Shown: piece by piece, positions 9,301-58,469 of the stretch
How positions within the stretch are numbered: position 1 is the first letter of the stretch
Layout: each line of letters begins with the position of its first letter
Origin: Paracentrotus lividus
Lineage: Eukaryota > Echinodermata > Echinoidea > Camarodonta > Echinidae
Reading direction: 5' to 3'
DNA length: 64,000 nt
NCBI GenBank assembly: GCA_940671915.1
Contig: CALNVZ010003434.1
Location: 24,957,558-25,021,557 of the forward strand
Notes under the pieces: model-generated
What the model saw: only the letters and a program-made list of their open reading frames with translations
What the model was told of the DNA's origin: nothing
Databases searched by the model: none
Position numbers and translations under genes: made by a program

Positions 9301-12300
9301 TTGGACACTGGGCTTGTTGTAACCGGTGTGTACATAAATTTTAGCTTCACTTTTTTTAAAGGCAGTTTCATGACCAGAATGAAAATCTGGCTATAATGCA
9401 AATTAATTCTTGGAGGCAAATTAATGCATATTTAAGAGAGAAAGAGGGTTAGTATGCTCAGTCCTAATGCTGCACTACACTTTATTTTTTGCATTTTTAA
9501 CAGTAGCCATAGACCCACAGTTAGCTTCTTCTTTTTTTTTAATTATCAGTAAGTTTATGGCTCTTGAATATACCCTTCCATGCAATCTACAGCTCATTAT
9601 AATGGGGATATCATGTACTTAATTTTGATATTTAGTCAAGTTGTATGCTTTTTTCCCCATTTTTTTTAACAACAAATTTTGCAAAGAACTAAATAAAAAA
9701 ATTCAGAATTGTTTAATACTTAGAAGAGTAGAGCAGAATTTCTAATTCAATTTTAAGAAAAACATGAAAAACACTTGCTTGGCATGAAGAAATTAACCTG
9801 CAACCATGATATAAATAACACTTTTGGTTTTTAGAATCGTATTAGGAAATAAAATGCATTATTTACAATGTACGATTGTCTATTGAATTTAAAAAAACTG
9901 TGAAAAAAACGGCAGACAAAAAAGTTACAAATGTAACCATTTTCTAGCCACTCATACTGACCTCTTCGCCCCAGCCTTCAGAAGCTCCAGCTAACTGGTA
10001 ATGCTGTTTACGAAGCTCAGCCAGGTTAACCCTCTCCTTCTCTAACTTGCTCTCCAGCTCCAGAACAGTAACCTGAGCTTCCATCTCCATACGCTTGGTC
10101 TGAGTCAGAGTAAGCTTTGTGAAGTCAGGTGAATCTGAGGAGATGTAATCATTGTTTTGAGATTAGATACCTTTTAGGTTTTACACTGAATAGGGCGACC
10201 ATCCAAGTATAAATTCATGTAACTGTGTGTTAAAATACACCATAGTCATTGTGGCCTGGGCCTCTATCTCCATACGCTTGGTGTGCATCAGAGTCAATTT
10301 GGTGAAATCAAGCAAATCTGGGAGGAAGAAATTTAGTAATATTAATCATAATAATAATATTCTGCATTTATAATAAAACTGTTTGAATATTTTGTAGTTG
10401 GTGCTTCACATGTATTACCTCGATAAAGCATTATGACAGAATGGAGGATACATACTGAAAGGAGAAACAATAAGTTTACAATATCTTTTATGATCTGTGG
10501 TGTTTCACAACAGCAGAAGCAAGACTTAGAATCGCACTAAACTCCAAGCATCATTCCAGTCGTTTAAATGCAATATCATTTTGACAGATTCCTCAACAGT
10601 GCGCATCCCCTGAGCACGATTCTGCGACCAATGGTCGGTGATGCTAATATACCCACAATACAAGTAATGTAAGGTTACTCTAAGTTTAACCTAAACCTCA
10701 CGTGTTGAAACACCACCCTGGTGTGTCTTAAACAATCTACTAGCCAAAATAGCCATATTCTTATAACAGAAATCACACTTTCACCAATAATGCAAAGAAC
10801 ATGCGTGAGCATGGAATTTTCAATATCTCTTACTCACCTCCTTCAGTCGATCATCGTGCTCACCGTCTGGCTGAGGAAGCCACCACTTCCTGCCGTTGCA
10901 GTTAGCAAACATCTTTGAGCAAGCGACCTGAAGGCCTTTGAGGTTAGTGCTTCCCTTGTCTGCTTTTATGACTTTGCTTGCTGCTACAGCTGGCTGTACT
11001 AGCTGCTATCTCTGATGAGAACAGACGATCAGCCTCCTTCAAACTTTCCCTTGTACCCACTCATAACCTTTCAGAGCTCTATCACGTGAAATGACAGAAA
11101 GCAAATATTAACAAATTGATAGATTTGAATTTGGCACTTCCCTTATCTTCATAGACAAGTTTGAGGTCTGTACAAGCAGCGGATCTCATCGAGATAAAGA
11201 CTCGTGAATCAGTTCTTAATAATTTTCCTCATAGAAGCGCTCAGACCTATGTGTAGATATCACTGAGGATGAGCGAGAAAAGTTTTCGATAAGGAAAAAA
11301 TACCTAAAAGCATTATTTCATTTGGCTCCAACCCTGATTCTTTATCAGAAGTGACACACCTAGACTACAAATAATCATGACTCAGCAAAATTACAACAAA
11401 CTTATCAGCTGTCTGGCTAGTAAGTTCTGGTGATACTTGATACAGAAAGACTGATCAAGTAGGTAAACGCAGAAAATTCAGACTTTATGAACAGGTTCCT
11501 ACTCATCCATGGTAAGAATCAATGAGAATAACATTATCAGGGCATATGAAGAAATGATAGTCTTTAAGAAAAGGCCATTATCTATAGCAAGTGATCAAAG
11601 ACAGGTTACACTGCAGTTACAGAATCCTTAGATTTTGTTGACCTGTTATAACAAAGCTTAAGAAGAAGTGTCCGTACTCTAAGTGGTCTATCACTGACTG
11701 GATGCAAAGGTCATGAGTTTGATCCCAGCACTGGCATTATGTGCTTGGGAAATGCATTCTATCTACACATTTGCATTCACTCCACCCAGGTGTAAATGGT
11801 TTCCCAATATGCCGTTTGCTTAAGTGCTACATTAACCTGGCCGCTAAGCTATGACTGAGTAATAATGTGTAAAGCATTTTGTAAAAGTGCCATGAGCGTC
11901 CTTACCTGATAGACCCGAGTTGTTATATAAGAAAGCTACTAGTATATCACTATTATTATTAAGACACATTTTACTTACACTAAGTGAGAAGCCCAACCCC
12001 AACCAGCTTAGCAGCTGAAAAGAAACCCTCTGTCCATCTGTGATGTCGTTTGTAAAAATCTTTCGCAGAGGCTGTTCCCTGTTGGAGATCACAATAATAT
12101 TACATAAAGGTATATTATGCTTCATTTACAAAAGTAAATTACAGGCTCAGTCATATCAGCTGTTAGTTTACATAAACAAGATTTCCAATTAGTTTTGGCT
12201 TGTTTCTTAAATATTTTATCATACAGTCTAATATATCTAACATTATGGTGAATAATTCAGAACAAATATCAATTTTTCTCATATTCCTATTCCATTTTAC

Positions 12301-15300
12301 CCCCCCCCCAATTTTTTAAAAATGTAACAATTTTAGAGCAATACAATGTTTATGGTAGTTACAATTAGTGCATAGGTCATTTGTGAAAGTGAATATTCTA
12401 AACTGAACAAAGATGTATTTCTTCATATTTCAAAACCATGTTGATATTTGAGGGTTCTTTCTAAAATTGCTGTTTCAATAACTTGCTTTTGATTTGAAAA
12501 AGGGGTGGGTTTAGCTTCAAATATACAGAGCTAAGCAAAGGTTGATTCATGCAATGTTATAGCCATGATCCAGACTTTTCACACAACCCATTGACAACAC
12601 CTCTCCTCTGCCTCTTAAAACTCAACTACCTAATGGCATGCATAGCTTACAGTGTCTTATATCAAATGAATCGGCCAATATACACCCGTCCACTTGCAAC
12701 TATTTCTTGCTCTACTGACTTTGATTTTGTGATATATTACATAAATCATGCGTATCAGGAAACCTACTCTCTGCACAATTACCCCCTGGGTGGTGTTTCA
12801 CCAAGTCGATCATAATTTAGGAACAACTATACGAACCACTGGTGATCAGTTCTCATGCTAAATTATTGAGAATGGGATTTGTATGGCACCTAAGAACATG
12901 TTACTCACCCGTCCACTTGCAACGATTTCTTGTTGTAGCGACTTTGACTTGGTGATGAGTTCTTTGATGCAGATCATGAGTTGTGTACAGGAATCTAAGA
13001 TCCTTTCATTCACCTCCAGCTTCACACCGGTATCAGCTTCTCTTGACCTCTTCAGCATCTCCTGTAAATGGAAAGATTAGAATGGTCAGAATTGTGGTAA
13101 CCAAGATTTGTACTTTTATCTCTAATAACATGATTTCTTGCAGTGATCCTTTCAAGTTGCATGCTGTTATTAATGAAACAATATACCTTCCTCCTCCACA
13201 TGCAATATTCATATGATAATATATCAAAATATATAATTTTTATAGAATTTGTTACCAGGATGTTCCATATATTTTTCCTCCACCATCATCATACCCATAT
13301 GCCCCTTCATCATCATTATCATCATCGTCATCATCATTATCATCGTCATCATCATTCTCATCATCACCACTACCTCCACCACCACCACCACCAACACCAA
13401 CACCAACACCACCACCACATCATCAACATCATCCCTATCCTCTCTCTTTACCTCTATCCTATCAACGAGGTCTGTTGTTAACTGCATCTAAGCCTCCACA
13501 AGGTCACCTACCTCTTCATTGTATAATCATCACCACCATCACAATAACAATCACCACCACCACCACCACCACCACAATAATCATCATCATCATCACCACC
13601 ACCACCACCACCAACTCCATCACCATAATCATCATCACCACCATCACCACCACCATCACTAACACCAACACCACCACCATGATCATGATCATCATCATTA
13701 TAATCACTACCATCATCACCATCATCATCATCATCATCATCATCATCCTCCTCCTCATCATCACCACCACCACCAACATCATCATCATCATCATCAACAT
13801 ACACTATCTTTACCTCTATCCTGTTAGCAGCTTGATCAACAAGGTCTGTTGTTGACTGCATCTCAGCCTCCACAAGGTCGCCAATCTCTTCCGTCGTACT
13901 CGTCTCCTCCGATATCAACTCCTAGAAATTGATAACAAGAAGGAACATGTGAGTTGGTCTAATGATTACCTCTCTTACTCTCTTTCTCTCTCCATCTCAT
14001 TCTTAAAGGGGACCAATACCCGAGGAAATAGTCATTTTTATAAGAAAGAGCACTATCAGAGGGGCATTTAAAAAAAAGTTTCATCAAAATCGGTTATAAA
14101 ATAAGAAAGTTATGGAAGTTTGAAAAGTCTCGTTTTACCTTCTATGGGGATCCTCAAACTGGCAACATCGGCTTCAAAATGGCCGATTTTATGGACAACT
14201 CTCCATTGGTTTTGTACACAAATTTTCAGATTTTCCCCATTTTCTTTCAAAATATGTCTTACCTCCTTCTGAGCTCAACATATGTTGTGTGAAATATATT
14301 TTCCCATGACATATTTTGAGCTCAGAAGTAAATAAGACATATTTTGAAAGAAAACGGGGAAAATCTGAAAATTTGTGTACAAAACCAATGGAGAGTTGTC
14401 CATAAAATCGGCCATTTTGAAGCCCATGTTGCCAATTTGAGGATCCCCATAGAAGGTAAAACGAGACTTTTCAAACTTCCATAACTTTCTTATTTTATAA
14501 CCGATTTTGATGAAACTTTTTTTAAATTGCTCCTCTCATTATGCTCTTTCCTATGAAAGTGATTATTTCCTTGGGTATTGGTTTCCTTTAAATATGACTC
14601 AGAAAATTTGTACTGGAAAAGATAATTTGTAATCAGAGATTTTTTAAAATATTAACAAACATGTATATTCTCAAAATGACCAAATGAATGTTCACATGCT
14701 CTGCATAAGGGCACTGGCACAAATTTTCAAGAAAATGTCCCTTCTTTCGCTGCATAATGAGGGATATATAAAACTTCACATAGCGTATTTATTATTGTTA
14801 ATTTGTATGTTGTATGAATTGTAACATGTATGTGGGGGAAAAAAACAAAACAATCTGAAGTGCCTTTTTCTTGATATGTACATAAAAATACCATTATGAA
14901 ACCCCAATAACCAAATGTCCTGTTGATGGTAAACCCAATATTTCTTACCTGCGTTAGTTGTGAGATAGCTCTAAGCTTTTCCCTCAGATCATCTTCACTC
15001 TGATTGAATGTTTGTGGATTCTCTTCCTTTAATGATTGAAGGACAGTCAAGGCACTGTTGCATGTGGCATGGCAATTTAATGATAGTCCTGTCAAAAGAA
15101 ACAAATACAGAATTGACATGAGCAGATATCAACAAGCTTTGAAGTGCAGATCACAATTTAAAGCATGCTATTTCATCAGGTATAGCACCATAGTCTAGTG
15201 GTTGACTGAGAAAGCAAAGGTCGTGGGTTCGATCCCTGGTATGGCACTGACGTCCCTTTTTTCTACATGCTTCTAACAACCCCGGTGTAAATGAGTACCC

Positions 15301-18300
15301 AGAAAGATGTGACCATCATTGTGGTTTGATCAGCACTGTGCACACCAATTTTAATGGTGCCTGGCAGGAATGCTCCTCAGAGGGTGGTGAATATGCACAT
15401 CTTATGTAAAGGCAAGCCTGAATCCGATGACCAAGGTAATAATCTGTCTGTAAACTGCTTAGAGACGTAGTTGAACTATGTATTAGGCGCCATAGAGTAC
15501 CGAAGGGTTGACGTCATAATCGCCCGTCGTCTCAGTTACTGGTTCTAAACAAAAAAGCCTGTGCATGAGGTTTAGCCTTAATGTGGTCCAGCAATGGGCT
15601 AGACTCGGGCAGATACACAAACAGGTTTTGGTGCGATCATGTTGCTATTGTTCAACACAAGATTGTTTAGAACCAGCAACCATAACAACACCACCGTTAT
15701 GACATCACACTTTGGTACTCTATATAAATCCAGAATATTACTATTATTATTGTGGCACTAGTCTAACATTCAAGCCTGTGAATAGCTGGCTACATCCTAA
15801 ACAAACAGCGAACAGTAACACTTGATATACTCACTTTCTCCAACATGTACAGGAGCAAGATTTGAGGTGGCTTTACCCTGCAGTAAGTATTCACCAAGCG
15901 AGTGAGAAAATGAGGCGATGGAACCAATTAATCCTCCAAATTCTGTAAAGAAAGAATATGAATTCATTGTTCAAAAGGAATTGATAGCACATACATGAAC
16001 AGCATTTCAAATTTGTGTTGTACTAAGATAGCACAGGACCAATTGGATAGGTTCTAAACAGAAACTGTATTTCTTTCCTGGCAATATCTCCTAACAATCT
16101 TTGTTCTTTTACTTACTACAAACATCATTAATATGATTATCATCATCATCAACATTATCATCCCCATCACCATCACCACTGCCACAAACACTACCACCAT
16201 CATCATCATCAATATCGTCGTCATCATCATCATCCTCCTCCTCCTCCTCATTATCTTCATCATCATTATCATCAACTGTATCTTCATCATTATTATCAGC
16301 TCCAAATCATCATCAGTATCATCTTCATCAATATCATCATCATAATCATCACCATCATTCTAATCCTTGTCATCATGATGACCATCTTCATCATCACCAT
16401 AATTATCATCATCACCATCATCATTATTACCAACACCACCACCACCATCATCATCCACATGATTTTTATCCTCTTCATCAATATCATCTTCATCATCATC
16501 ACTATCATCATCCTCAGAAACGACGTTATCTTCTTCATCATCATTGCCATTATCAACAAAATTATCATCATTATCAATATCATCATCATCATCATCATTG
16601 TCATAAACAAACAACATCATTATCTTAACAGATTGAATACTGACCGTTGCTGTTTTGCTGATATGAGTTGAAGCATCTATCAAGGTTATTCACACATTCA
16701 TCTGCTGAGGGCGCTCTACTCAGGAGATATTCTGTGTCAATAAAAAAATGAAGTGCAAATTTGTTTGTAAGATCTTTGGACACAATATAGGTCTATTAAT
16801 GCTTTTGTTTAAAAGTTGTACTCCAGATCTAGTTGCAGATGTCGCACTGACCAGTAATTCGAAGGGTTGAAAATAGACGATTCCATTTATGGTTGTATAC
16901 CTGTTTCTAGTGAAGCCTTAACCGTGACAAGTACAGAATCTGTATAATCACATATCAAAACGGGACCCATACAGTGTGCAACAAACATCTGTCTTGTTTG
17001 TTTGTTTGTTGTTTTTTTGTCTGCTTCAAGCGAAATTTTTCAAAACAACTGATTTTGAACATTATACAGGCCCCCTAGACCTGAGAGTCAAATGGACAAA
17101 ATGTTTGGAGTGTGGTTTTCTTCTTGTCGTAGAGTGTGAATAAGAGGTTTTAGCATTACTTGTAAAGGGAGTGAAATTGATTTATTATTCTAACCTGGTG
17201 TACACGTAGCTGAAGCAAACTGAGGATCATCCATCTGTTGCATGATAAGTCTCAATGTCTCCTCCGCCCCCTCTACAGCTTTGGCTATAAAAACAATATG
17301 AATCAAACAAACAAATAAACATACATATCAATAAAGAATATGTTAGAGAGAATTGGCTAAAATTTTATCATATATGTATACATGTAAATTTTAACAACGA
17401 AAGAAACTGACCAGAAATATATAACATGAAAAAAAAATTAACAAAGAAAATGGGGTTCCATTAGCATTTGATTCTGATTACTAGTCAGTCACTCTACCAA
17501 CTGAGCTATGGCAAACCCATGTCTATATTTGTCCCTGAAAACTGTTAACTTTTCAACGCTCGTGTGGTCAGAAGCTATTGAAACATATATATGTATATAA
17601 ATATATTCCTTTGTCATTAGAACACCATTTCTTTTGATACTAGTTTCCTTATTCATTGCTAGAACTACAAATTATCTGACTATTTTTCTCACCAAGCAAT
17701 GCTTTCCTCTGTTCCTCCATTTGTCTCTTGAGTTGAGCCTCCCTGCTCGCTGTCTGGGCTATGGACATTTGTAACTTCTCAACGGTCTTCTCCGCAGAGT
17801 CCCTTGCATGTAATATCTCTTCAGAGCTTCTAGAAACAGTGGTAAGCTGCTTGCTAGCTTCAGCGTTCTGGAAATGAAGTGATACATCAAGAGTTTATTA
17901 AATAATGGAATAACTGCAAGTAATATCAATGATAGAAAATATAAATATAAAGAATAGTCCAAGCTATGGACATTTGTAACTTCTCTACTGTCTTTTCAGC
18001 CGAATCTCTAGCCTGTAATATCTCTTCAGAGCTCTTGGATGCAGTCGTCAACTGCTTGCTGGCTTCAGCCTTCTGGTAAAGGAGTAGTCATATAATGAGA
18101 GTAAAGATAATATACTGAGCAATAGACATTTGTATATTTTCAACAGTTTTCTCAGTCGAATCTCTCGCCTATAATATTTCTTCAAAGCTCTTGGACACAG
18201 TCGTAAGCTGCTTGCTAGCTTCAGCGTTCTGGAAAAGAAGTGATATATTAAGAGTTTATTAAATAATGGTACAACTAGTAGTATAATGATAGTAATTTTT

Positions 18301-20191
18301 CAACAGTCTTTTCAGCCGAATCCCTAGCCTATAATATCTCTTCAGAACTCTTGGTTACTGTCGTAAGCTGCTTGCTGGCTTCAGCATTCTAAGAAGAAAA
18401 AAAATGAAAAAAAAATGGTGTAATTAGTAATGATGAAAGTGGTAAAGATAAACTGAGCTATGGACCACTGTTTGCTAGCTTCAGCATTCTATAAAAGAGA
18501 CAATGGTACAATTAATAGCGATGATAGTGGTAAAGATAATAGTCTGCACTATGGACATTTGTAACTCCTCAACTGTCTTAGCAGAGTCCCTCATAAGTAA
18601 TATCTCTTCAGAACTCTTCGATACAGTTGTACGCTACTTCCTAGCTTCAGCATTCTACAAAAGAGATAATGGTATAATCAATAGTAGTGATAGTGGTAAA
18701 GATAATAGTCTGCGCTATGGACTTTTTAAACTCCTCAACTGTCTTGGCAGAGTCCCTCACAAGTAATATCTCTTCAGAGCTCTTAGATACAGTTGTAAGT
18801 TGTTTGCTGGCTTCAGCTTTCTGGGTTAGAATTGAGAAATTTTGACAATGAAAGATAGAATTAGAAGTAACCTGTATTCAATGACATTTCGTTGATGGAA
18901 ATTACAAATTGCATCAAAAAATGATAGCTCGCCCACGTAAATAGTGTTCAATAAATATTCTTTACATTGCCAATTTAGAGGTTTCAATGATTGTTTCCAC
19001 CCAAACAGTTAATAATGAAAATAATAATAATAATAATAAACTGGTTCTTATATAGCGCATAATCAATTAAAACTGCTGTATGAGCTATCCATACAGCTCT
19101 CCATTATTACACTGCAATGAAAATAGATAAGTCTTTAGGTGTCTTTTAAATGATTCAACTGATTTGATAGACCATAGATAGGCGGGCAAACTATTCCATA
19201 ACTTTGGACCACAAAAATCGAAGCTGGCTTCCCCCCTTTTTAAAACAACTCTTGGAATGTATAAAATTGAAGTATCTTCACTAGAACAAGTCTATTCAAG
19301 AATGGTGCCCTTTTTATTTTATATTCTTAAAAACACAGAAATATGTAACATAGTAGAACTCACCACTCTGATAAGGCCTAGATGTTCCTCTCGCAGTTTA
19401 TTGTAGACATCTTTCATCTTCTTGAATCTCTCTTCATTGACCTTTGATCTCCCTGTGATAGGTAAATATATACACAATCAATCAATTGACAGTACACAAA
19501 TGATACATGCCAATTAAGTTTGAAAGTAATCATCTACACAATCAATGAATACACTGCAGCCAGTACAGAAGTGAAAAATGCAAAGTGAGTTTGCTGTAAA
19601 CTCCATATCAGAATAGGGGGAAAAAAGAAACTAGCAATTTAATTTAGACATTTAAGTTTCAAATGAATCATACAGTTCACTGTATATGCATAACTCTTTT
19701 TAATTGCATTGGGAGTGAAACGAAAAACTGAACTTTCACCTTACGCATTTAGTATTTCACGTTTTGTTTGCTTTCATTAAAAAAAAATATGATAGTATCA
19801 GTTTCATTTATTCTAGGACGCACTGTCAAATCTATACAAATTCATGGTTAGCTTGTGTATATACAGTGTACCAAAACTACAGCTAAAAAAAACTTCTAGA
19901 TTTGCTCATATGACACCACAAATTTGTGACAACACTCAGTTTACTTGATTCTGTAAGAACACTTCTTGAATCATTATGGACCTAATGGCAAAGTAGGCCT
20001 GTGCTAAACAAGTTGTCTAATAAAGTATACTCCAACTACATTACCATAACTCTAATCAACCCATCAAGATATCATTCATGCTATACATCTACTCACTTTC
20101 AGCATCAATTAACTTCTCTTCTGAGACCATGAGGGCAGCAGATTCAAGTTCTTTTACTTTGTCCCGTAACGTTTCATTTTCCTGAAAAATG

Positions 20192-20241
<50 letters not shown>

Positions 20242-23200
20242 CATTTAAGAGTACATTCAACCGTTTTCTACAAAACAGGATAAATAATGTAACACCTATC
20301 CCCAAACTGAGCCTGAAAGACAAACCCCACAATCTCAATCCCTTATCTTTAATATGAGTACTAGTTCCTATGACAACTACATGTACTTTATCGGTCAAAT
20401 ACATGTACCCGCTTGACAATTATTTGTACCCCCCTTAGAATAACTACCCGGTACTCCAGGGACAAACACCCACCTTCTTCAAATGCAACTATTAAGAAAT
20501 CAATTCTCAAGACAGGACCATGTCCTTGGACAATTACCCCCGGGGTTATTGTCAGGGGGGCAGTTATGCTGGAAGAGGAGAATAATTGCCCAAGGGAGGT
20601 TGTCCAGGGGCTGGTGTCCACGTGTCATGAAGGTAGTTATACAGGAATTAGTTGTCCTAAAATGCCTCATCTAATAATAGTAATAGTGGTAGTATAATTA
20701 GTGATGTAATTGGTTACATTGGTGTCACATATTGTGCAGCATTTTGATATGTTGAACAATTGAGAATCCTATGTTGAAGTGCATGAGGGGGTGTGTCACT
20801 TGGCTGCTTCTATTTGCCCATTATAAGGGTATGAGCACAAGCTAATATGGATACGCGCAGGAAGGATATAAGTACAAGAAATAAAATTGAAGGCAATCAA
20901 TTATTCATAGGGATATGCCAAAGATCGAAGGGTCTAATGCAACATTACTGGACTATATAAACTCCATATACTAAATCATCCCTCGTGCAGGTCCATTTCG
21001 CATTAGCCTAGAGCCGCGGTGAAACAAACATTCACTCAGGAAAATTTAGTATCTGTTGAGCATATAATCCAGTATATTGCATGCTGGAACATGCAATATT
21101 TACCTCACACTGTGTCTCCACCACAGTCCGATGTTCATTCATCTCCTGTTCCATCTCCATGAGTCGTCTCTTCAATTCTTCAATGATTCTCTGATCTTCT
21201 CTCTTTGTCCTATCAAGCTCAAACTTGAGTTGGTTCACTTCTTCCCTCAGCTGTTCAATAATCCAATCTCTAAATACAATCAAAATCAAACCAAATCAAT
21301 ATCTATTTGCTTTAATTCAACCTCGAGGGTTCAATGATTCTCTGATCTTCTCTCCAACTCAAATTCAAACTTTTGTTAGTTCATTCACTCCCTTATCTGC
21401 TCCACCTAATCTCTAATAGAATCAAACTCAAACTAAAGCAATTCATTACCTCTTTGTCTTAATTTCAATCTCAAATGCTCAATGATTTTCTCAAACTCAA
21501 AACTTAAAATTTCACACTCAATGTTCAATGATACTCTCAATCTCAAACTAAAAATTGAGTTGGTTCACATCCTACCTTAGCTGCTTGAGCCAATTTATGA
21601 TAGAATCAAAAATTAAACCAAATCAAAGCAATATCTCTGTGTTTATATTCTAAGCCTCACATGGTCAAGGATTCCCTCAAAACTCAAATTTGAGTTGGTT
21701 CTTTTCCTACCATGACAGTGTGACAGATATATACCAATGTGGTAAATTCCCATTTGGTCTTAACCCACTTTGGCTAATAACCATTTGGTCTCTTTCTACA
21801 GGATCTAATTCAATTTTGTTTATAAGTGGTTCATCTAATTACCTTTTGGTCTAATTGCCACTTTGCCTATTTTTACATTTTGTCTAATTCCCATTTCATC
21901 TAATGTCCACTTGGTCTAACCTCACATCAATTCCTTTGACAACTGCCAACAGAAGAAATATTAATTTGATTATTACAGAAATTGGCAATTAATTGGTAAT
22001 ATAACAGAGTGAGATTTAGACCAATTATGTATTGGACCAAGGGGAAATTAGACCGGATTGTCTGTAAACCAAATGGCCCGAATTCACAAACGTGGTTTAG
22101 TTAGTCCATGGTCTAAATCAGGTGGTTTGTGAATACCAAAATTTAGACCATGGTCTAAATCCGTGGTTTAAACAATTGATTTAGACCATGGACTAACTAA
22201 ACCACGTTTGTGAATTCGGGCCAATGGGTTTAGCCAATGTGGTATTAGACAATCAGAGGATTGGGCCAACTGCCGTTAGACCAAGTGGATATAGAATTGC
22301 CTTACCTTTCATCAGGACCACTCTGCTGTACCTGCTGTTGTTGTTGGAATTGTCCATTTTGTTGCGGGGGTGGAGATGACATGAGGTCTACTAACATAGT
22401 GCTGTGTGCAATGGGTTCCTCAAATCTCTCTATCACTGGTTCCTCAATAGATGCTTCACTAGGGGGCTGTAAAGCAACATGATTAAAATCAATTCTGGTT
22501 GTTGAAATTGAGTTTATCAAATCAGATCTACTTGATGTTCAGTAAAAATGTAGTGTTTGCTGAAGTAATCACAAAACATATTACCTGATTTTACAGGTGC
22601 TCACAATAAAGGAGTCCTACCATATACCCTTTTATCTCGATTAGGTGTAGCATTAAGATAATTGCCTTGCTCAAGGAGATTAGTGTCAGTACCAGTGATC
22701 GAAACCACAACTCTTACTTCCGAAGTCATGTTATACAACCACTAGACTATGACACTTTAGACAGTTATATTGTGTTAATATATTTCAGAGTGACAAACCA
22801 CTATTACAATGATTGGAAAAAATATCAAAACCTACCGGTGGACTATCTCTGCCACTAGCTCCATCGTTCATAGACTCATTGAGGGCAAGCATGACAGCTG
22901 GACTAATGTATGTGTCTTGGTTCATAGCAGCTACAAAGAAATTCGGTGATTCCTGAAAAAAATACAAAAGTACATTATTGGTTTAGGTGATGGGATGAAC
23001 TATTACTTTCAAGAGCGATCTGGATATAGCTTTATTTCTGAAGATCATCAAAGAAGTTTTTGTTTGTCTCATCATCTGTAATGTGGAAAATAACATTGAA
23101 GATGGTAGATGAAAGATAACATTGAATGCCAAACACTAATATAACTTGTAGCTGTGTCACAGTCCATTACATACATGTAGGTACCAGTAAGTGTTCTACA

Positions 23201-26200
23201 GTGCAATTGGAGACCAGTGCCCAGTAACGCAAAGACTTACGATTGATAAAAAGATATGATTGATTTTTCTCGGTAGCCTCATCATGGACAGGGTGCTCCA
23301 AAGTTGATGATCTTAATCCGAACCCTAGCCCTATCCCTAATGTTAATCATATTCTAATCCTAATCCATGACTGTACCTGCGTTCAAAATGAGGCTACTAA
23401 GAAAAAATCAATCATATATTTTAACCAATCGTAATTCTTTGTGTTACAGGGCTCCGTAACACAAAGGTTTGCGATAACTTGATAAATGGCAATGGCCAAT
23501 CAAAATCACGGTTGCAAGCGCTTTCTGTTCAAAAGACTGACCAGTAGCCAATGAGACTCGTTCTTTCAAATTTGCAATTGATTGCAAAATCTTTGTTTTA
23601 CAGGGCTCTGGAGACTATTCAGTGACCACATGGCAACTCCCAGATATCTCCTAGATACTAACCAAGTCTCATTTTTTTTTAGAGAGATTTCTTCTCATTT
23701 TCCAGCTGGTCTATGCAACGTATTATTCAATGTCAGTTTTTCATTATTAAAGGCAAATGAAAATCCTCATATTCTTAATATTCTGTATGTAACTGAATGG
23801 TGACAGGACTTTTGCTCCTGCGACAACAGCCCTGGGCCCGTATTCCATAAACTATACTTAAGCAATTTTGCTTAAGTCTAAGTATCTTTTCTAATATTTT
23901 GTCCAGGAAAAAAATTTCTTAGCTTTTATTCCAAACACGTAAAGCACTTTGCCTGAGCTCAGAAAGCATTAAGCAAAAGTCTTTATTCTGTTAATATTGT
24001 CATGTTTAATTTGGGGCCTCAAATGAGCTTGCCATATAATCAACATCCAAGTTAAGCCACTAGGTAGTTAGGCTTAAAGTTGAGATAAAATTCACTCTTC
24101 TGATGTGCATATTTTTAGGAGCAACTAAATTTAAGACGTTTTACTTAGCCTAAATCAAATAATTTATGCTCAAGTGTCAAAAATATGCTAAGCAAAAATA
24201 CTCTTAATTAAAACCAAAATTTATTTTAGCAAAAAAATTCTTAAGTTTCATGCTTAAGTCCAACATTTATGGAATACGGGCCCTGGGCTTTATTTTGTCT
24301 AAGATGTAGGGTTAGGTTTAAGGGTGCGATAGGGATTTTCTTTAGGTTTTAGGGTTAGGGTTGAGTATCGCGGTAAGTCCAGGGTCGAAGTTCAAATAAA
24401 GTACTGTATTCGTCGTTATTTTCGCGCGATTAATTTTTCGCGCTGAGTGGCCTCAAAAAATGTTCACAGCTTCTTAAATTCGCGCTGCATGTTCGTAAGC
24501 TCGCAATTAAACCCATTCCATACATGCGAAGGAAATAATGCCTATATATTCGTGGGTTTTTTAATTCGCGCCTGCCGCTCTTTACGCAAAATCCGCGAAA
24601 AATAATGTACCGCGAATATTTCCACGAATACAGTATGGAATTTGCAGCGGAGCATTTGTTGCAGGAGCAATTATCATGGAATCAACTGAATAAATGACTT
24701 GAAGATTGTTACTCACTGCAGGGAGAGTAGGTACTTGGATGAGTCTTCTGAAGTAGATCACGCTGCTGCACTTGGCATAGAATTCCTTCAGTGCACGGAA
24801 CTGCTTCAAGAATCGTGACCTATGACCCTCCAGTGTGTCCGATGGCAAGCCTGAAATGTCAGAAAAGTAATGTCAGTAAGGCCAAGTATAAGACCTCTCC
24901 TAAAAAGTTCCACACATTAAACTTGAGTAGATACAACTTCAATTTTAGTGTAGCAACATCACTGCATTTGGTATCATGAAATAGTCCATTTATTCCATAT
25001 CTTCAAACTATTATGTTACATACAATGTAGTATGTGCTGTGCATGGACACCTGAATGTTAGAACAACACAAAAGTGACATCGAAGGATATATTAGGATTC
25101 AAACTAGAGATATTTCAAAGCCTACTTTTTTATAAACATTAATTTGGAAGCCATATATAGGATAATTCAGATTGCCATAGTATGCCTCCAAACTGGAACC
25201 GATTATTATTATTTTTTCAATTTGTTGCCAGGGGCCCTAGATTTTGGCGGGGACCCATATTATTGGGTCCTGATCATCTTAAGTCTCTATAAGAGAGAAC
25301 TCCGCTTTACGGACATCATTTAACCGGGGCCTCCTCTATCATCTGGCCATAGACAGATTCCCTCTTTAATTCCACTTTAAATTAACATAAAGCATCGCTT
25401 TTCTCCTGTTATTAATGTTATTTTCATCTCCTTACACATAGAAAGACATTATGGTAATTTACAATCATCCATCCCATGATCCCTCCACTCAAGACTATTA
25501 AATCTCCACCCCCCCCCCCCCATAAATTTTGATAGTGCATAAGCTATGCATTACTCTCACAACCGGCCATATCACTTAAACAGACAGGTGCTGGTCCCAA
25601 TGTGGCCAGATAAGTGAGGTCAAACTGTATAAAAAATATTCAAACTTACATGCATGTAGTTTGTAGAGTAACCTGACGCTGAAATCATATAGTTGACCGG
25701 AGTCTAGAATGACCGCAATGAGTGGTGAAAGACGACAGTGACCAGACGATGTACCGGACAAAGCTTTGGATAGGTCAAACGATCTGAAGACTAAGATTGA
25801 TAAAGAAACAATAAATAAATGACCCCTATGATAGGTGAAAAACTGCAATTGCCAGACGATGTACCAGACAAAGTTTTGGATAAGTCGAATGATCTGAAGA
25901 CTGGGATTGATAAAGAAACAATAAATAAATGACCGCTTTGAGTGGTAAAAGACAGCAGTGACCGGAGGATGTACCGGACAAAGCCTTGGGATAGGTCAAA
26001 TGATCTGAAGACTGGAATTGATGAAGATACAATAAATAAACAAATGGATTTTTTATATTGACTACATTTTGTATAAAAATTAGATTGACTCGTCAAGTAA
26101 TGCACGAATGAGTACACATCAAAGAGTAAATTGCCACTGACAGACCTAAAAAGGCCTCCTAATACTTTTGTATAGAGATCATTTTGTCTTTGACGTGTGC

Positions 26201-29200: not shown

Positions 29201-32200
29201 GGGCAACCATTTTGGAGGAAAAACTAATATTCTAGAAAAATGTTAGTGTTGAGTGTTGACTTATATAGACAATATTTTTGAATTTACATCGATCAACTCT
29301 GTAAAGTGTTGGAGGATGATTTTTGAAAAACTATACAAACAGATTTGGAGTTGCTCTCATTTTGTCATGCACACGAACCACTAACCCCTTCCCCTTCCAT
29401 TTTAATATCAGGAGAATTCAGTAGAAATCCTGCAATATATCTACTTAGCATTTCATTTTACCATATGTATTATAAGATGAATTATAGATCTTGCATTGTA
29501 CTTACTAGTTGTTGATATCGTTTTCACACATCTTTTCAATATCTTTCTCTGGATTTTGGAGTAGAAGGTTACCAGGCAGAAGTGGGTTCTAAACAGAAGA
29601 AAGATAACAAATTATAATCCATATCTGTCTCACATCCTGTCAATCTATTTGCTCTCATTACCAATTATATGAACATATACATGAAGAAACCTTTGAAGGA
29701 GATTAAAAGGCACTTTGTAAAGTAATTTATATCAATTAAATTTTTATCATGATTAAGATCTACATGTACATATTATACAAGCAGGGGAGTAGCAATCAAA
29801 TAACTAGCATATCAATGATGTGGTGCTCATCCCGCATCTCGCAAAGAAATAAACACGATTTTTAAATTTTGCATAAATCAACATAAATAATTTTCTTTTC
29901 AAAATTTCAAAATTCTGTGTAGTTTGGTGAACCTTTGGTGTAGCTCTACCAGATGGTACCAAAAAAAAAAAATCTAAATCGGTCAACAAATAAATAAGAA
30001 CAGCTTTTTTTGTTGAATTTTTAAAAATGCGCATAAATAAGCATATTTAATGAGTTTCAATATTCTGAGTAGAAGTTTTGAATCCCCCTTAGTGCTATCA
30101 TATAAAGCAAACAGAATTGAGATTGATCAACAAATGAAGGAAAAGAAGCAATTTTTGTGATCTATGAATAAATTGCGCATTAATAGCATAAATAATTTAC
30201 TAGACAAGATTTAAAATTCTGTGCATTAGTTTGGTGAACCTCATGTAGCTCTACCAGATGAAAAAAAAAAAAATCTAAATCGGTCAACAAATAAATAAGT
30301 ACAGCTTTTTTGTTGAATTTTTAAAAATGCGCATAAATTAGCATATTTAATGAGTTTCAAAATTCTGTGTAAAAGTTTTGAATCCCCCACCTAATGCTAA
30401 AAGTATCATATAAAGCAAACAAAATTGAAATCAGACTTGAAATGACGAAAAAGCAATTTTTGTGATTTATGAATAAATTTTACATAAATTAGCATAAATA
30501 ATTTTATAGACAAAATTTCAAAATTCTGTGAACAAGATTGGTGAACCTCATGTAGTTCTACCAGATGGAACAAAAAAAGTCAAAATCCGTCAACAAATAA
30601 AGAAGAAGAAGCATTTTTTGTGAATTTTGAAAAATGTGCATAAATTGGCATATTTAGTGAGTTTCAAAATTCTGTGTAGAAGTTTTGAATCCCAAGCAAA
30701 CAGAATTGAAATGACGAAGAAGCATTTTGAAATTGAGGACGGACAACGGACGCCACGCCACAGCATAAGCTCATCTGGCTCTTTGAGCCGGATGAGCTAA
30801 AAATTTAACTGCATTGGTTTGTAGCAAATTTGAGGCAGATTATGACTCTGTTTTTCTTCTACAGAAATTTAATATGTACTTGACCTTTGAATACTTTCAA
30901 CCACATGATAACTACAATTCATTTGTCATTCAATTCCCTATTGTGTCTTTACGCATCATTGCCAGCTGTTTATTTGTTCAATAAGCAAACCATATAGCCT
31001 ACAATGTATCAACAATTATAAAGCCTTCTCCCAAGCATGAACAGCTAAAAAAAAAACAACTATAATATATGAATATTCTTGATTCTCATCCACCAGTTCA
31101 AGTGGTTTATATCCTTTTGGTCTAAAAGTAGGTGGCCCATTCCCTGCTTGTCTAATACCACATGGGATTAAGCCATTTGGTTTACTAACAACATGGTCTA
31201 GTTTTCACTTGGTTTAATTTTAACTTAGTATATAAATGGCAACTTGGTCTAATTACCAATCCGTCTAATAAAAACATATTCTAATGTAACTCTCAAATGA
31301 ATATGTGATCTATTACCAGTGTGTTACAGGTAATAGACTAACTGGTGTTAGACCAAGTGGGCATTAAAATAAAGAAGAAAATTAGACAAAATGGTATTAA
31401 TTGACAAAGTGGAAATTAGACCAAACAGGCATCAGTAAAAGTGGATTTAGACCAAGTGGCATTTCACCACTCAAGGATTTTCATCCTGTGTAATGGCAGT
31501 GTATGACTGCAAGCATAAATTGCCTTTCAATATAAATGTTTGGGATCACCGGCATGATATGAATAGTTAATTGATAATCCCAAAGGACTTGAAGTGAGCT
31601 TGTCAATCACACACACCTACCTTTCTGTGGAATTCTAGTTTGGTGTTGAGCAGACTGCAGTAGGCTGCATTCAGTTTACCATATCCTTCATGGAAATGAC
31701 CCTGGAAAAATTATACAAGTACACACAATGTTAATACATGGAATGTATTGATATGCATAATAAAACTTATTGTTATACACAATGTTATATGGAATGTATC
31801 GATATACAGTGTAATTATAAATGTTAGATATGCTCCATGTTTTTGTTTATAGAAAATTATTTTCAAATGCATTTAAAAAAGTCGACCAAATCTCATGTAT
31901 ACAATTTGTGCATTTCATGTACATCATGTACACCCCCAACATTCATTATAATGAGTGACCTACTTTTCCTCGTGGGTCGGTAACTTTTTTTTCCCTATAG
32001 CCTATAGCATGCATCGCTCAAGAGAAATAAAAAAACAAAATGAATAAATAATCTCAATAAAGAATAATCATTAGAACTTTACAAGTGTGATTTTAGAAAA
32101 GCGGTAATGTCTATTGAGGTTTGTAATCAATTTAATAGAGAAACACAGTAATTAATGCATGGTGTTGAGTATTCTTTTATAAATAAATATCTAATATTAA

Positions 32201-35200
32201 AGATAAAGGATGCAACTTGCATGCATGTATTATGTATAACACAAATTATGAAATGTACTTTACGCTCTATGTTTGTGTTCACAGAAAATTATTTGCATTG
32301 TATTTCAAAATGTTGACCAACACTTAAAGCCTATAATATTCCAAACATAACCTTGTAACAGATTCCTTGGGAACAAGCAAATTACCTTGTTATAATGGGA
32401 CACAGGTATATCAAGGCTAACAAACAAATAAAGTAGAAAAGAGTGGGACTGCCAAATTTGCATTTTATGTTAAGACTCACTTTCCACTGTTTGACAGAAA
32501 GTACTAAAAATATCCAGATGACTTAAAATATGTGTCTTGGGTGAAGATAAGGGACTACTTACTATCTCTAACTGGAAACAATACACATGTGTAAGATCCC
32601 AAATAATCATAACAAAAACATTCCCAATACAAAAATATATCATTCGATGCAATAGTCTATAGTCTTTAATTTGAGATCTAGCATGTAGGCCTTACACTTC
32701 TTTGATCATTGTTGAGTTACAAGTTAGCCTACACATTTTAGTCTCTTTATTTATCAATTAAACTTCAAATCGGTCTTAATGAATGAAACCTATGTATGTA
32801 GATTCAACTTGTTATCAAATCAATTAAACAGTTAATAGATTTTGGTACCCTTCTGATTTAGGAAATTCCTTCATTACCTAGTTAACGTATCATAGGCTTG
32901 TAGATCACAAGATTACAATTTGCAAAACTGATTGACCTCATTAAAACAAGATTTATTTCCATTGGCTCTATTACCACCTCACAGATACTGTAGGTCATCT
33001 AAATGTATGTCCTGTAACATAAAGTGTTATCAATTTGAAATTGATAGTAGCCAATCAGGATCCTTGTTGCATGGACTTCTTGAATAGAAATCTCCCTGTG
33101 AACCAATCAGAATGGGTGCTTTAAAAAATTTTGATCCTAACTCTTTAGCCTGTATTCACAAAGGTGGCCTAAAGTTAAGTCTAGCTTAAATCTGTGCATT
33201 AACTATGACTGGCTAAGTAGGATACAATCATGAAAAGTAAATTTTCAATTTATCAGAATTTTTTGTACTTAAACTATTAAAAGCTGCATGGGCATGATAA
33301 GTACAAGAAGTTCCCTAACCACTAAAGTATGATTCCAGAATCCAGTGAACGTGTAAAGAACATTGCATCATATCACATTCGTCTCCCACTTTGCTAGCCA
33401 TAAACCACAGATAAGCTAGGCGTAACGTAAGGCCACCTTTGTGAATATGGGCATTTATGTTATAGGGCAATGAGTTAGTCTGTATGGACGGCTTATCTCA
33501 TTATTAGTGAAGCCTCCCAGAAAAGGCCATTTTACATTTTTTTCTATAATAAAGTAACTTTCCAATTTAGATTTATCTGTTTTGACTTACCCACATTGTA
33601 CCAAGATCTTTCAAATGATCTGTGTGATCTCTGAGCTGCTTCTGCGCCTGGAAAAATAATAAAGTGGAAGATACACATGTATAAAACTTCTAAGTGGTAT
33701 TACAATTTACATCCTGTGTCATGAATTAAAGATAATTGTTTATTTAAATGGATGGTATTGACTTTGGAGGTTTTTGTAAGTGTTAAAAGTACAAATGCAT
33801 ATCTTCCTTTTCAAAATATTTCTGCCATTTATCGCCAATACATATGGGGCATACATGGATGCTCCAGAAATATTTGCTATTACCTAGCTATTACACATAC
33901 ATGTACATGTATATTTCGTCATGCAATGTATTATATTAAGGGCTCTAAATAAAAAGTTACTGAGCCAAACCACAAAATGTGGGCTTCTATCCTTCATTGC
34001 AAAATACACAGGGTCACAATACTAGTAAACAAGTGTTTGTGCCTATGCTGTGTACTGTTAGGGACAGTGATTTTCCGTTTTACAAAAGGATATTTTCCAA
34101 TTCTGATACTATCGTTTCAAATTTGATCTACAATGATATTTCATGTTGTCATAGAAAATGTAGAGTGAAAAATATGAATTCCGTTTCGCAACAGGTAAAT
34201 CCAATGAATTTCGCATAAAAAGTACAGAACCACAACATATTTTCTGTTTTGATTTACCATTAAACGGAAAATGACTACTGTATAAGTGGTTATTTTCTTG
34301 AATTTCGAGAGTCAGTCATTGCGAAAATTTCCACTTCAATACAAGGCTATTTAAAGTAATGAAATCATCACCAAAATCGCGAAATTTTTCTCTCAAGAAT
34401 TTTCCCAACTAGTCCAAAATCGCAAAAATATTGGCTTATAAAGTATCCCAACACTGTGTATCAGTCTTGTAGGCCTGTATTCAAAACAGCCCTTTATTAA
34501 AAACCTTACAACAAGGGAAATCTGTACAAAACTCTATTTCAATTTCATTCTACAATTCCCAACCAAGGGGAGTATTTTCACACCTCTGTTATATAGAGGT
34601 CAGCAGTGGATCACTGAACTGGGGCAATACAGGTCAGCCTATAGGAGAATGGGCAGTGCTTTACTAGATCAAGATTGGGTGATAGCGGGCTTTTTCTGCT
34701 CCGATTTTCTCTCAAATAGCAAGAAATTTTGGGTGAAATCACAACTTGGGTTTGTTTTGCAGTTTTTACTTCAAATACATTGCTTGACAAATTTAGCAGT
34801 GATGCACAAACCTGAAACCCAGGCTCAAGAATAAGCTTTGGGCCAAATCATAAAGCTGAATTTTGAGCTTTTTAATGTGTAGCGTCAACTTCATCCTTTC
34901 ACATCCACCTTGCAATATGCTATTCGGTGATGATGACATTTGATCCTGCTACAATTGAAGATGCTAGTACTAGATGTTCCTATGTTACATCAAATCAGTT
35001 TTGAGAAACAGAGGGTAAAAATGTAACATACGAACATCTAGTACTAGCATCTTCAATTATTTTACATATTCCAAAAGAGTAACTCCTCCCGCATCTTTTG
35101 GTACCATTTTTGTGTGGTGTCTTTACGCTTGGATGAACACGACACATTGTTACATAAATGTAACAGAGGGCCAAAATGTAACATACAAACATCTAGTACT

Positions 35201-38200
35201 AGCATCTTCAATTGCTCCTGCCACAATTGCTCCAGGTTTTATTTTGTCTAAAATGTAGGGTTATGGTTGCAATAGGGTTTTATGTTAGGTTTAAGGTTAG
35301 TTTTAGGGTAAGGTGTAGTGTTAAAGTCTAGAGTTGAAGTTTTAGTCATTTGATTAATGTATGGAACTTGAAGTGGAGAAATTGTCATCGGAACAAATGT
35401 CATGGAATCGTGCTATTTACTGGGTTTTGTGGTAGTGAAGCATCGCCTCATGTGTGGATGCGATTAGGCACCATAGCAGACATAATTGGGAATCTGGTAA
35501 TGATGTCAGGCTACCGGAACTGAACTGTGACATGCAATTAAGCCCCAAAGTCAAGAACAAGAGTATAGAGTTGGAATTCTTGATCTTGGATTTATGTGTA
35601 TGCATATAGGGATAGTCCGATGAGCTAATACTGTAGGCCTACATCTTAATTGTGATACAGTTTTTCGGTTTTTAATAAAGAAAGCTTTACAGCACAACAA
35701 AAAATAGACAATAGCCAAGAGTGGCCCCAAAACTTGAAAAAGCCCTGCACACGGAATAACAGCTACATGTACCATTGAAAAAATATTTTATATATATCAT
35801 CACACGCACCAAAAACCATCCTCTCTGTATCACATAAAATTTTTCAAAGAGGACGGTTCGTGATGTGTGCGATGATATTAAATAAAGGAGATTGTTTGAT
35901 TTAAACATGGCTCTCACAAAACTTTTTTTTTTTACACTGTGCAGTGTTTAGACTATCTATAGGCCTATAAAAATAATGTTGTCCTACATTGATAACTATT
36001 GGATTGTGTGTTCATGTATTAGAGAAAACAAATACAATTGATATGGATATTCATAGCACTTTTTAAATACACATCAGGAAATGTTGGTAAGTGTTTTCTT
36101 TAAGTACATGGACATGTATTATGTTGGAATAATACCTCAATAACAATAAAATTCATTACAATGCAGTAATTCTGGTAAATGCACTGGATTTACTGTATGT
36201 AGAACTGTGAAAAACGAGAGAAGAACCCAGTCTATATTATCAACCTGTGCCATTCATTACAGCCTAGAGTGTAGGACTTCCATTTGCTGCGAAAGATTCA
36301 GTAAAATACAGTCAGAGCAATCAGATTTTACTCATTTCTGTCTCTTTCACACTTGTTTTGGGAAATCGAACAAAAATACTACATGTACCCTGTAAATTCC
36401 TTTAAATATCTCAGAATAAACTAAAAACTAGTAGTGTTGGCCACTGATCTGAATAGAGGCATTCAATTTCATACATTCAACTCCTTGCTAATTCTCTATC
36501 CATATTTTGGCACAGCGCAGACAGGACATAATGTATAAAATTGACCTTCAATTAAAAGGGTCGTGAGACAAGTTGTATGGGAAATTGCTGTAGGCTGCAT
36601 TGTACATGTAATCCTAGACTTCATTGTTGATCCTCTACAGTGGCGAATCCAGGTGGGGGCGCAGGGGATGCGCGCCCCCTATAATTTGAAAACCACTCAT
36701 TGAACTTACATGCTAGAATCCGAAAATTTTGGTGGTGCCCCCCCCCCTCCCATCCGGCCCCCTATCCTGAAATCCTGGATCCGCCATTGCTCTAGATTTT
36801 AAACTTTGTCCATGCACCCTTTTTCTTTCTCTCCTCTACAAATGTTGTGTACATGTATTTCTAGAACCATCAATTTTTGATATAGGATAGTAAATGTATT
36901 TTATTTTCTCAAATCATCTTGCTTCGACCTTACATGTATGCTCTGAGTCTATAAAGAATGAATCTTTCATTTCCTTAGATCTACATTACGTTCTTTTAAA
37001 GTTTTAGCATAATATTACATTGGCCTAGAGGGGCCTACATTTATGTACATAATACACTCTCACCCTTGTCTACATACTGTACTGTACAACTGTATTTATT
37101 GACCAGTATTCTCAAAGGGCGACTAAAGTTAGTAGGCCTACTTTAAAATACGTCACCCTTGTGTTCGAAACAATAGCAAGGCCTATTTAGTAGGCTTACT
37201 AACTACATGTATAGTCACCCTTCGAGAATACCAGTCATCGTCTCTATCTTTCTGTATTTCCTACAGGAACAGACTTCTCAACACATTGTAATGCACTATA
37301 GTCCTGAATACATTGTGTACATGAATATGTAGGTCAATGCACTTTTAGATCTACCATCATGCAGGGAATTCCCCTTGGCCTCAATACACCTCTGACCTCT
37401 AGCAGACAAATCACTTTCCTTTCAATGTCATTTGAAACCCTCAACAAGTCCCCTCTACACATGCAGAGCTGTGCCTCAGGCTTTGACTGTTCTTGTACAT
37501 GTTGCCTTGAATTACAGTGTTGTGATATGGATGCATGCTGTAGAATACCCTTTTCTCAAGTACCAAATGTTCCTGAACCCCGTACTATAGGTAGTACTAA
37601 CTACTATACTTGCCATTATAACCCCACCTATCGTACAGGGTTAAGCTTATTCCACTTTCTGTTCCCACGGCATTTTGGCAAATTAGGCTTACCCATAGTA
37701 CAGGATTCTCTGGCCCTGCAAAATAGCCCTGCAAAATAGCAGGGTTACCAGACAATAAGGTTGAAAGCCAGGGTTAAAAACTCCTGTCGGAACAGCGATG
37801 GAAGTTATACCCGGCAAAAAGTGGAGCTGAAACACACAGGTGCCAGCAGCTGTTGTCCATTCAGAGATATTAAGCAGCAAACCGCTCTATCAGAAAAGCC
37901 GGGTTGTCGAATTCTGTGTGAGAACAGCGTGCATTTTCTTAACCGGGGTTAGCCAGATAATTTGGCTCGTCAGAAAAGGAAAATAAATAGTATCGGGTTA
38001 AGGATAGTACAGGGTAAAGAAAGTGTCAAAAGGGTATTAAAGTCCCTGTCAGCACCAAAGCATAGAGGGTGCATTAATGGTCAAAAACAAAATTTTAACA
38101 GGAGCAACAATCATGATACGAAATGCAATTAAAACACTGAACACAATCACAATCAGCGATGCGATGGTCATTACATCGAAACTGATGGTCTTTCAAAACG

Positions 38201-41200
38201 CCCCTTTTTATGCGTTTAGATTTTCCTCAGAATGGAACTGAAAGATGTAAATATTTACGCCCGGAAATTAGAACTGTGAACCCAACTTTTGTTTACAACT
38301 CTATATTCCTATGTTTGATAGTTGAGTTTTGTATCATGATACATGTTCCTGTTTAAATTGTAATGTTGTTGTTGTTGTTGTTCTTATATTTTACGGCGCT
38401 TTCATTCATTATATGAATATTTACGCCTTATGAATTGCGTTTTTTTTTTCGTTTTTTTCTTCCCCTCTTTTTTTAAAGATAATCATTTTCCTGTTGAAAA
38501 GATTTTTTTTTTTTTTCTTTTTAATACAAAGCCTTGCTTGATGATAATCAAGAAAATCAAAATATCTATCGTATATGTCTCTAATAAAATACCGTCCTCA
38601 TTCTTAAAAGGAAAAATAATTCTTGTTCTTATAAAGCAAAAAGCAAAAAGAATTACGGTATAATAAATAAAAAGGACAGAAAACAAAGTATAGGTACTTT
38701 GACCAGACGGCACTTTTGTATGAACGTACCAAGAGTATGAACGTACCAAGAGTACCGAGAGTCTGAAAAATGAAACTTTTGTATGAATCATACGTAGGCC
38801 GCCCTGACACATCCACAGACTAATGTACAGGTTACAGGGTTTCAGGCTCGCTCTCTAAAAAATTGCAAATTGTGATAATAAAATGTACATGTCTGTAGAC
38901 TAGCCCGTGTACCTTGCCTGTCAATTACGCCATGCTGTTCAGGTATTAAACATGACTCATGCTTTGTGTACAGTCAGAGAAGGCACTGGGAATTTCCACT
39001 CTCACTGGTCAAAATACAGACTACTAGAGCATACATGTAAACTGTAAAGTGCAGTACAATAATGCGTAATTTAGTTCTCGGTAATTATGAGCAATCCATG
39101 ACATTTGACTTATCACCAAAAATTTAAGCTAATAAAGTGTTTTTTTTTTCATCGAAGCCTACATTTGTTTTACCATTTTAATTTTTCAAAAGAGATGTCA
39201 TTATGAATCCTACGAGAAAAATAACTTTCCTCACATAATTCATACAAAGTAAATGCATGCTTTCAACATCATACATGCACCCATATTTGTCTGACTGTTT
39301 CAATTGTGGAGAAATAAACATTATTTTGTACTAAAGCTTTCATTACATCTGCATGCGCAAATTATAGCACATGAAACATGGGGTTTAAAAATAGCCCTGA
39401 CAACCTTCCAGGTACAATTTACATACTGTACAATGTTTGTTGGCAAGCTCTCACACCCTTCACAGATTGAAAAGGAAATATTATACTTATCTGTTTTAAA
39501 AGGAATAAACCACTTGAAACGTAAATAATTTATCAGATATATCACAACTCTATTCAATTAGAAACACCCACTAGAACAGAACCTGATACCAATTCTATCA
39601 ACAAACTTTCAACAAGGTTCTTCCTATTTCCTGTAGAACATTTTTTTTTCTGCTTTCACACTAGTTCAATTTTGTATCCAAAAGAAAAATCAAAGTTTAT
39701 ACTATAAACATGTAGGGTATGTCAATCCTGGTAAAATTCACATTTATTTTCATTTGTTTCATATTTTTACTTTCGCCAATCAATTTTTTCGTTTAAGTTA
39801 TCTGCTTTTATTGGAGCCAACTGGGAGCCAGGGAAAACTTTCATTTCAATTCAAATTCATCCTTTACATGTAATGCTTGAAAGACATCCACAATGGACAA
39901 TTACCCCCCGACAACTACCCCAGGAATAGGGTTAGGTGTAGAGTTAGGGGTAGACTGTTGGCAGGGATAATTTTCCAGGATGTAGTTGTCCTAAAAACCC
40001 TAAAAAGGTTATTTTTAGATTATTTTTATTATAATTTATAATGCTAGAAATGTTATTTGTCAATAAAATTATTCAACGTACATGTATGTATGTATTTGCT
40101 AATCATTCTATTTAAGGTTTAAAGTTTCAATACAAGACATTGATTTCTATAAAAACAGGAACAGCTCATAGATAGTAATCAAAATAGTTGAATTCCTATC
40201 TCACATATGAATTAGGCATTACATTTTATGCTGATAGAAAAGAAGAATTTCCTCAGTTGAAATTACATAATAACCGCAATCAACATGATACATCCTAGTG
40301 CTTCTTATCATTATAAACGTGATTGAGAAGGAAATATTATAAATCCCCTAAAAAGGATGCAATGTAAACAAGCCCACATCAGCTACATGCATACTGCAGG
40401 AAAGTGATAACCCTTTATCACTTCCTATCTTATCAAAAAATTTAAAAGTCTCAGACAATCAGAGATTTCACTTAAAAAACTAAAGGGCATTTAGAAAATC
40501 TTAAAGGAAAAGTTCACTCTAAATAGTCCATCTGCATCTGATGGCTTTCGTGCTCAGCGATACCTTAATTTATTCCAATTTAAAGGTGGTATCTCAGATG
40601 CCTCCGAGATGTCCAGGAAAAATCTCATTTAATATGAACATGTTTGGTTTTCCTGCAAATCATGGCGAGGAGACTCAAGAGACGTCTATGGATGGTAGCT
40701 TGCAAACCATGGTCCAGAAGGTAGACGCCCTCTTCTACAAAGAACGTCCTAAGGAACCTACTACTTCTTCTTCTTAAGCTTCATTAATTTAGATCTATGT
40801 TACAAATGGATTCAGGGGTTTCAATTACCTCTTCACGTCCCTGTCTAAGAACCTTATGAAGGGTGTGGCAAAACTTTCAGCACCCTGGACCAGTAGCGTG
40901 CACACCACGCTCCAGAAGGCTGACGCCCCCTTCTCCTGGAACATACATCTACATTTACCAAGGTACCTACTACTTAAGCCTCATCCAGATCATCTAGATC
41001 TATGTTATAAATTAAATATTTTAATTACCTCTTCATGTCCCTCTCTGAGAACCTTGTGAAGGGTGTGACAGAACTTCCAGCATCAACCGGGTTACCCTGG
41101 ACCGGTAACTTGCACACCAACGCTCCAGAAGGTCGACGCCCCCTTCTCCTGGAACGTACCGATGATGATGCCTTCATAGGACAGTTTGGAGGTTAAGGAA

Positions 41201-57790: not shown

Positions 57791-58469
57791 ATTGATGATC
57801 AAGAATAGTGGACAAATGAAGATTCAATCCAAGCAATTTATCTCATTGATAAGAAGTTGAAAAAAGGAAAGGCAATAATATTTCGATGGGGTTTTGTCTT
57901 CTTCGTATCCGACTTGACGAGACTCTGGCAAATTTCCATAAATAAACCTGAAACGTATGAGGGCAGCAAACACTATGGTCAGAATATGGAGGATGACTAC
58001 AATTTTTATTTCTAAAGTTTGATCTCTCATGGAAAATCTGTCATGTGTTCAACGGTGTCGGTTTGTTTTGGCGATTGGGGGGGGGGGGGATGATCGTCGA
58101 TATTTCCTCTTTTCCTCGATGGACACGTATACGATGGTCATGATGGTATATGATCGCAGTGTCCATTGTTGGGGGTAGGCAGAAATATTCCACCGTTCTT
58201 GGGATATTAATTGAATATTCGGAATTTGTCCCAATGATAATGATATCCCATTTTGTGAGCATTCAGTGTTTAACCAATGCAATCCCAAAATAGCGACTGA
58301 ATCCTTCGGTCTAGGGGTGGGGGTAATGCTTGTATATCAGGGGTCCATTGTAAAGCAGGCCCTTGTGGCTCTGAACTGGACTACCCTGCATTTTAAAGAA
58401 GACCTGAAAAAAAAATAAAAATACACAAATGCATATAAATATGGAAACAAAAAATGAAGGCCTATTATA

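Follow-up and report, generated by a model that had tools for sequence, protein, structure and literature searches.

What leaves one gene strewn with truncated copies of its own exons, each lying on the side that its surviving splice site dictates? In the 64-kb stretch of Paracentrotus lividus DNA analysed here (the window), an initial annotation had described such copies beside six exons of a HIP1-like gene, and had proposed a duplication habit peculiar to this gene or purifying selection that tolerates no other layout. Our analysis favors a plainer answer: very probably, the partial copies are ordinary short tandem duplications that clipped exons, with a geometry that is forced and with exons favored mainly through their detectability.

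Judged by its predicted domains, the minus-strand gene in the window is a member of the HIP1/HIP1R (Sla2) family of clathrin adaptors. The protein spliced from exons 4-22 contains an ANTH domain (Pfam PF07651, 9.4e-38), for which the HIP1R ANTH domain is the closest solved structure (3.5e-55), and a HIP1-type coiled coil matching the HIP1 structures 3i00 and 2qa7 (about 1e-9). The C-terminal I/LWEQ (THATCH) domain is present as well (PF01608, 2.4e-12; HIP1R structure 1r0d, 1e-29), its end being encoded by exon 24. A splice-bounded model was obtained for 21 of the 22 exons from 3 to 24, the exception being exon 23 at its acceptor, and exon 2 was found twice, upstream of these; a human HIP1 sequence served solely as a search probe for exons. 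Between exons 15 and 16 (17195-17867) the coiled coil is ~80 residues shorter than in human HIP1, and a search for an exon encoding the missing residues found none. On either strand of 49001-63999, where a second gene was sought as an internal control, no Pfam domain matched.

Each exon was compared against the whole window. Same-strand partial copies adjoin exons 3, 8, 12, 15, 20, 21, and 24, all within 1 kb and each cut off at one exon end, and the rest of the window contains no convincing copy of any exon. The copies of the six exons named in the initial annotation (3, 8, 15, 20, 21, and 24) are real and lie on the sides given there (E = 1e-9 to 1e-27), while a seventh case, exon 12, had been overlooked (best E = 2e-10). 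Copies, more numerous than the initial annotation implied, lie upstream of exons 8 (two), 12 (three), 15 (five and a fragment), and 24 (one), and downstream of exons 3 (two), 20, and 21 (one each). Outside the exon-15 array, the features are:

41029-41171, minus strand: best copy of exon 3 (ANTH domain); compensating small indels leaving two in-frame stops, U12-type acceptor
40829-40946, minus strand: exon 3 partial copy 1; donor GAG|gtaatt kept, 12-nt deletion
40689-40747, minus strand: exon 3 partial copy 2; exon middle only
25650-25790, minus strand: exon 8, intact
25818-25900, minus strand: exon 8 partial copy 1; acceptor kept, unit of 110 bp
25928-26011, minus strand: exon 8 partial copy 2; acceptor kept, 1-nt frameshift
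21104-21269, minus strand: exon 12, intact
21330-21411, minus strand: exon 12 partial copy; further fragments at 21543-21594 and 21680-21711
13814-13921, minus strand: exon 20, intact
13452-13517, minus strand: exon 20 partial copy; donor GAG|gtaaag, one stop, 12-nt deletion
12909-13061, minus strand: exon 21, intact
12686-12733, minus strand: exon 21 partial copy; donor weakened, CGG|gtgtat
9962-10134, minus strand: exon 24 (end of the I/LWEQ domain), intact
10255-10317, minus strand: exon 24 partial copy; weak acceptor kept, frame open

Stops or frameshifts are present in copies of exons 3, 8, 12, 15, and 20. At exons 3, 8, 12, and 20, the intron part of the duplicated unit aligns far above shuffled sequence (the exon-20 unit, ~374 bp, takes in a CAT-rich intron repeat), and in the exon-15 array intron parts align between several pairs of units. 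At exons 21 and 24, similarity stops at the splice site and the presumed unit's intron part aligns no better than shuffled sequence, so that a tandem origin of these two copies is only presumptive. Tandem duplication with one breakpoint inside the exon, as proposed initially, thus describes at least five of the seven cases and probably extends to exons 21 and 24.

The accompanying claim that one exon stays whole each time fits exons 8, 15, 20, 21, and 24, but not exon 3 as sequenced. Its best copy reads GTFQEKGASTFWSVGVQVTGPG*PG*CWKFCH, with two in-frame stops that arise from frame shifts cancelling each other, so the present sequence offers no intact exon 3. Small indels also affect exon 22 (11979-12079), in which a stop appears close to the end unless a G run has lost one base, and exon 23 (10838-11048), whose reading frame changes six or more times; the residues of both are otherwise conserved, and amino-acid change across these places, exon 3 included, is otherwise small. 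The indels are probably uncorrected sequencing error and possibly local decay. Their resemblance to sequencing error is the point in favor of reading the whole pattern as partly an assembly artefact of unpolished long reads and merged haplotypes. However, exons and copies differ by ~10-25% and are set apart by their substitutions, splice sites, and deletions; tandem copies so divergent do not result from consensus errors or from the collapse of haplotypes, and we regard an artefact as extremely improbable.

The side rule itself needs little explanation. Duplication of a stretch running from the upstream intron into an exon would place a truncated, acceptor-bearing copy upstream and the whole exon after it; the mirror-image event would leave a donor-bearing truncated copy downstream of the whole exon. 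The initially reported rule, with acceptor-keeping copies upstream and donor-keeping copies downstream, does hold, but any duplication with one in-exon breakpoint gives it. Neither this rule nor the survival of one whole exon carries information, because head-to-tail duplication permits no other outcome. The sole free quantity is the share of events with one in-exon breakpoint as against two or none. When units as long as those observed were assigned random positions along the gene, this class made up 44-81% of exon-touching duplications, and the product over all seven one-breakpoint events was 0.08; selection is therefore not needed. Purifying selection that tolerates only partial copies is moreover contradicted by exon 2, of which a complete second copy exists, both splice sites included.

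Local direct duplications were then called by blastn with one set of settings over the whole window. This yielded 18 loci, compared with 3 inverted ones and with none in 20 dinucleotide-shuffled versions of the window. Eleven of the 18 are not linked to exons (four in HIP1 introns, seven outside 9961-41171), and a habit peculiar to one gene is not supported, given the forced geometry and the action of this same process in introns and flanks. The rival view, that HIP1 is a local hot spot for exon-internal tandem duplication or that selection retains only this arrangement, can point to the 7 of 22 exons affected and to a weak or mild excess of exon overlap, 7 of 11 in-gene loci against 3.8 expected from randomly shifted loci (P = 0.035, a value that overlooks detection bias, since a slow-evolving exon member keeps old events detectable). 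With exons and copies masked, the exon-15 and exon-20 loci alone of the seven were re-detected, which fits a detection bias favoring exons, and the duplications of exons 21 and 24 are visible solely through their conserved exon part. Set beside the forced geometry, the equally ordinary duplication of introns and flanks, and the whole copies of exon 2, these results make a hot spot or selective filter very unlikely; the over-representation of exons presumably reflects detectability.

Other repeats were noted in the window. An intronic array at 29842-30694, with ~300-bp units in nearly three copies, bears no relation to any exon. A 50-bp tandem repeat array occupies 53652-54323, with lone scattered units at 51.6 and 52.6 kb, and a near-palindromic inverted repeat, seen by eye, lies at 13959-14600, within the intron that separates exons 19 and 20.

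In the account that we prefer, short head-to-tail duplications (units of ~110-370 bp, some multiplied further) would arise all along the sequence of the gene. A breakpoint inside an exon would leave one intact exon and one truncated copy; the intronic copies would normally be spliced out and mostly decay, and the constrained exon would let an old duplication still be recognised once its intron part had faded.

The splice sites of the copies were scored as well. AG is retained at all nine acceptor-side sites in the copies of exons 8, 15, and 24, a point that counts against inert decay, and these acceptors score 2.3 to 16.7, compared with 2.4 to 19.2 for real ones. The exon-12 copies have acceptor scores below all real acceptors. 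On the donor side, the parental sequence is retained in copies of exons 3 and 20 and weakened in that of exon 21; the exon-20 alignment ends at 13452 after the deletion, where the sequence reads on into an intact donor. The decoy splice sites of the initial description amount to about a dozen copy-borne sites, a small minority within the gene, where ~256 acceptor-like and 75 donor-like sites match or exceed the score of the weakest real site. Most likely, the copies are unused in splicing.

The largest group of copies lies upstream of exon 15:

17693-17867, minus strand: exon 15 (coiled coil), intact
17963-18072, minus strand: copy c1; acceptor retained, open frame, donor absent
18115-18228, minus strand: copy c2; acceptor retained, a single stop, in common with exon 15 the intron and first 26 exon bases
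18292-18388, minus strand: copy c3; acceptor retained, stop codon as in c2, with the adjoining fragment c3b at 18468-18488
18542-18654, minus strand: copy c4; acceptor kept, one stop, in-frame 3-nt deletion in common with c5
18708-18820, minus strand: copy c5; acceptor kept, frame open, the same deletion as c4

Some intron parts of these units are recent (86-87% identity) and others are saturated. Across exon 15 and its five copies, variable columns number 11/11/30 at the three codon positions (38 columns each) and parsimony-informative columns 2/2/14. Differences private to copies number 8/6/18, so that 18 of 32 fall at third positions (P = 0.006 versus one third), and the third-position tree branches leading to the copies are longer. 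This codon-structured divergence exceeds what is expected of freely decaying copies. An antisense frame was considered as its source and rejected (antisense frame 1, 55% synonymous; sense, 58%); because antisense frame 1 mirrors the sense frame, no separate antisense gene is claimed. Mutually exclusive use of the copies was likewise rejected, as splice-site scoring found no donor of real strength in the array.

The codon pattern raises the alternative that the exon-15 copies are coding now or were so recently, with unequal exchange shifting them into and out of the functional position; for some of their history, the present decoys would then have been constrained at the protein level. In addition to the third-position excess, this reading draws on the comparison of exon 15 with c2: the intron part is 86% identical and the first 26 exon bases are identical, and beyond base 26 the two differ at 18 of the 30 remaining third positions (clustering P = 0.003), the sharp change that recent exchange predicts. 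The in-frame deletion common to c4 and c5 points the same way. Against it, three of the five copies bear an in-frame stop, none has a donor of real strength, a mere 38 codons are involved, and a single functional lineage shedding copies over time accounts for part of the third-position excess. We consider current or recent coding unlikely. Less likely still is the further idea of the array as a reservoir, whose six diverged variants of the 38 codons that open this coiled-coil exon alternate in the functional position by unequal exchange; if true, a working gene would draw replacements for its exon sequence from a "decoy" array.

Tandem genomic duplication is accepted as one way in which introns are gained (PMC3443670; on internal gene duplication, Gao and Lynch 2009, as cited there), and a tandem duplication across an intron-exon boundary has been described in a potato RdRp gene (PMC4974935). 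As in potato, the HIP1 events have one in-exon breakpoint, can place an acceptor with part of an exon upstream of the whole exon, and pass on splice signals; unlike in potato, where the new intron is spliced, the HIP1 copies are not known to be used, and they involve several exons of one gene. Repeated partial exon copies within one gene were not described in the literature that we searched. The scarring of seven exons vividly exemplifies a known process, not a new one. It illustrates that a striking rule can arise from geometry and detectability, with exons serving to mark old tandem duplications and keep them in view. Should partial exon copies prove equally dense genome-wide, gene predictors and splice-site annotation in such genomes must expect truncated exon copies. 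Two parts merit specialist attention, namely the array at exon 15 and the duplicated exon 2 with its U2/U12 flanks:

42336-48961: 3.3-kb tandem duplication (42336-45654 and 45655-48961), 97.7% identity in aligned bases
44261-44324, minus strand: exon 2, proximal whole copy, 64 nt; U12-type donor gtatccttt
47577-47640, minus strand: exon 2, second (distal) whole copy, same sequence as the first

Among the duplicated exons, only exon 2 has both an acceptor and a donor in each copy, and both copies encode the same peptide. The donor gtatccttt is the U12 consensus and the acceptor looks U2-type; joining one copy of exon 2 to the other would require a mixed intron. At the exon 3 acceptor (41172-41200) there is no pyrimidine tract, and ttccttaac lies ~20 bases upstream, so intron 2 appears to be a minor-spliceosome (U12-type) intron. 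Because of the donor-acceptor combination of exon 2 and its length of 64 nt, which is not a multiple of 3, the copies are expected to be mutually exclusive in mRNA.

Tandem exon duplication is a recognised route to mutually exclusive exons (reviewed in PMC6071210), and the HIP1 cases resemble such systems in that all are local tandem duplications and exon 2 is whole with both sites. They depart from them in the seven sets of partial copies, which lack one splice site and therefore cannot act as alternative internal exons, and in the identical peptides of the exon-2 copies. U2/U12 incompatibility provides another such route, in JNK genes and others (PMC3584512). Exon 2 has the same arrangement, a U2-type acceptor and a U12-type donor, with the motif ttccttaac before the exon 3 acceptor; unlike in the JNK-type cases, its exclusivity is predicted from the DNA only.
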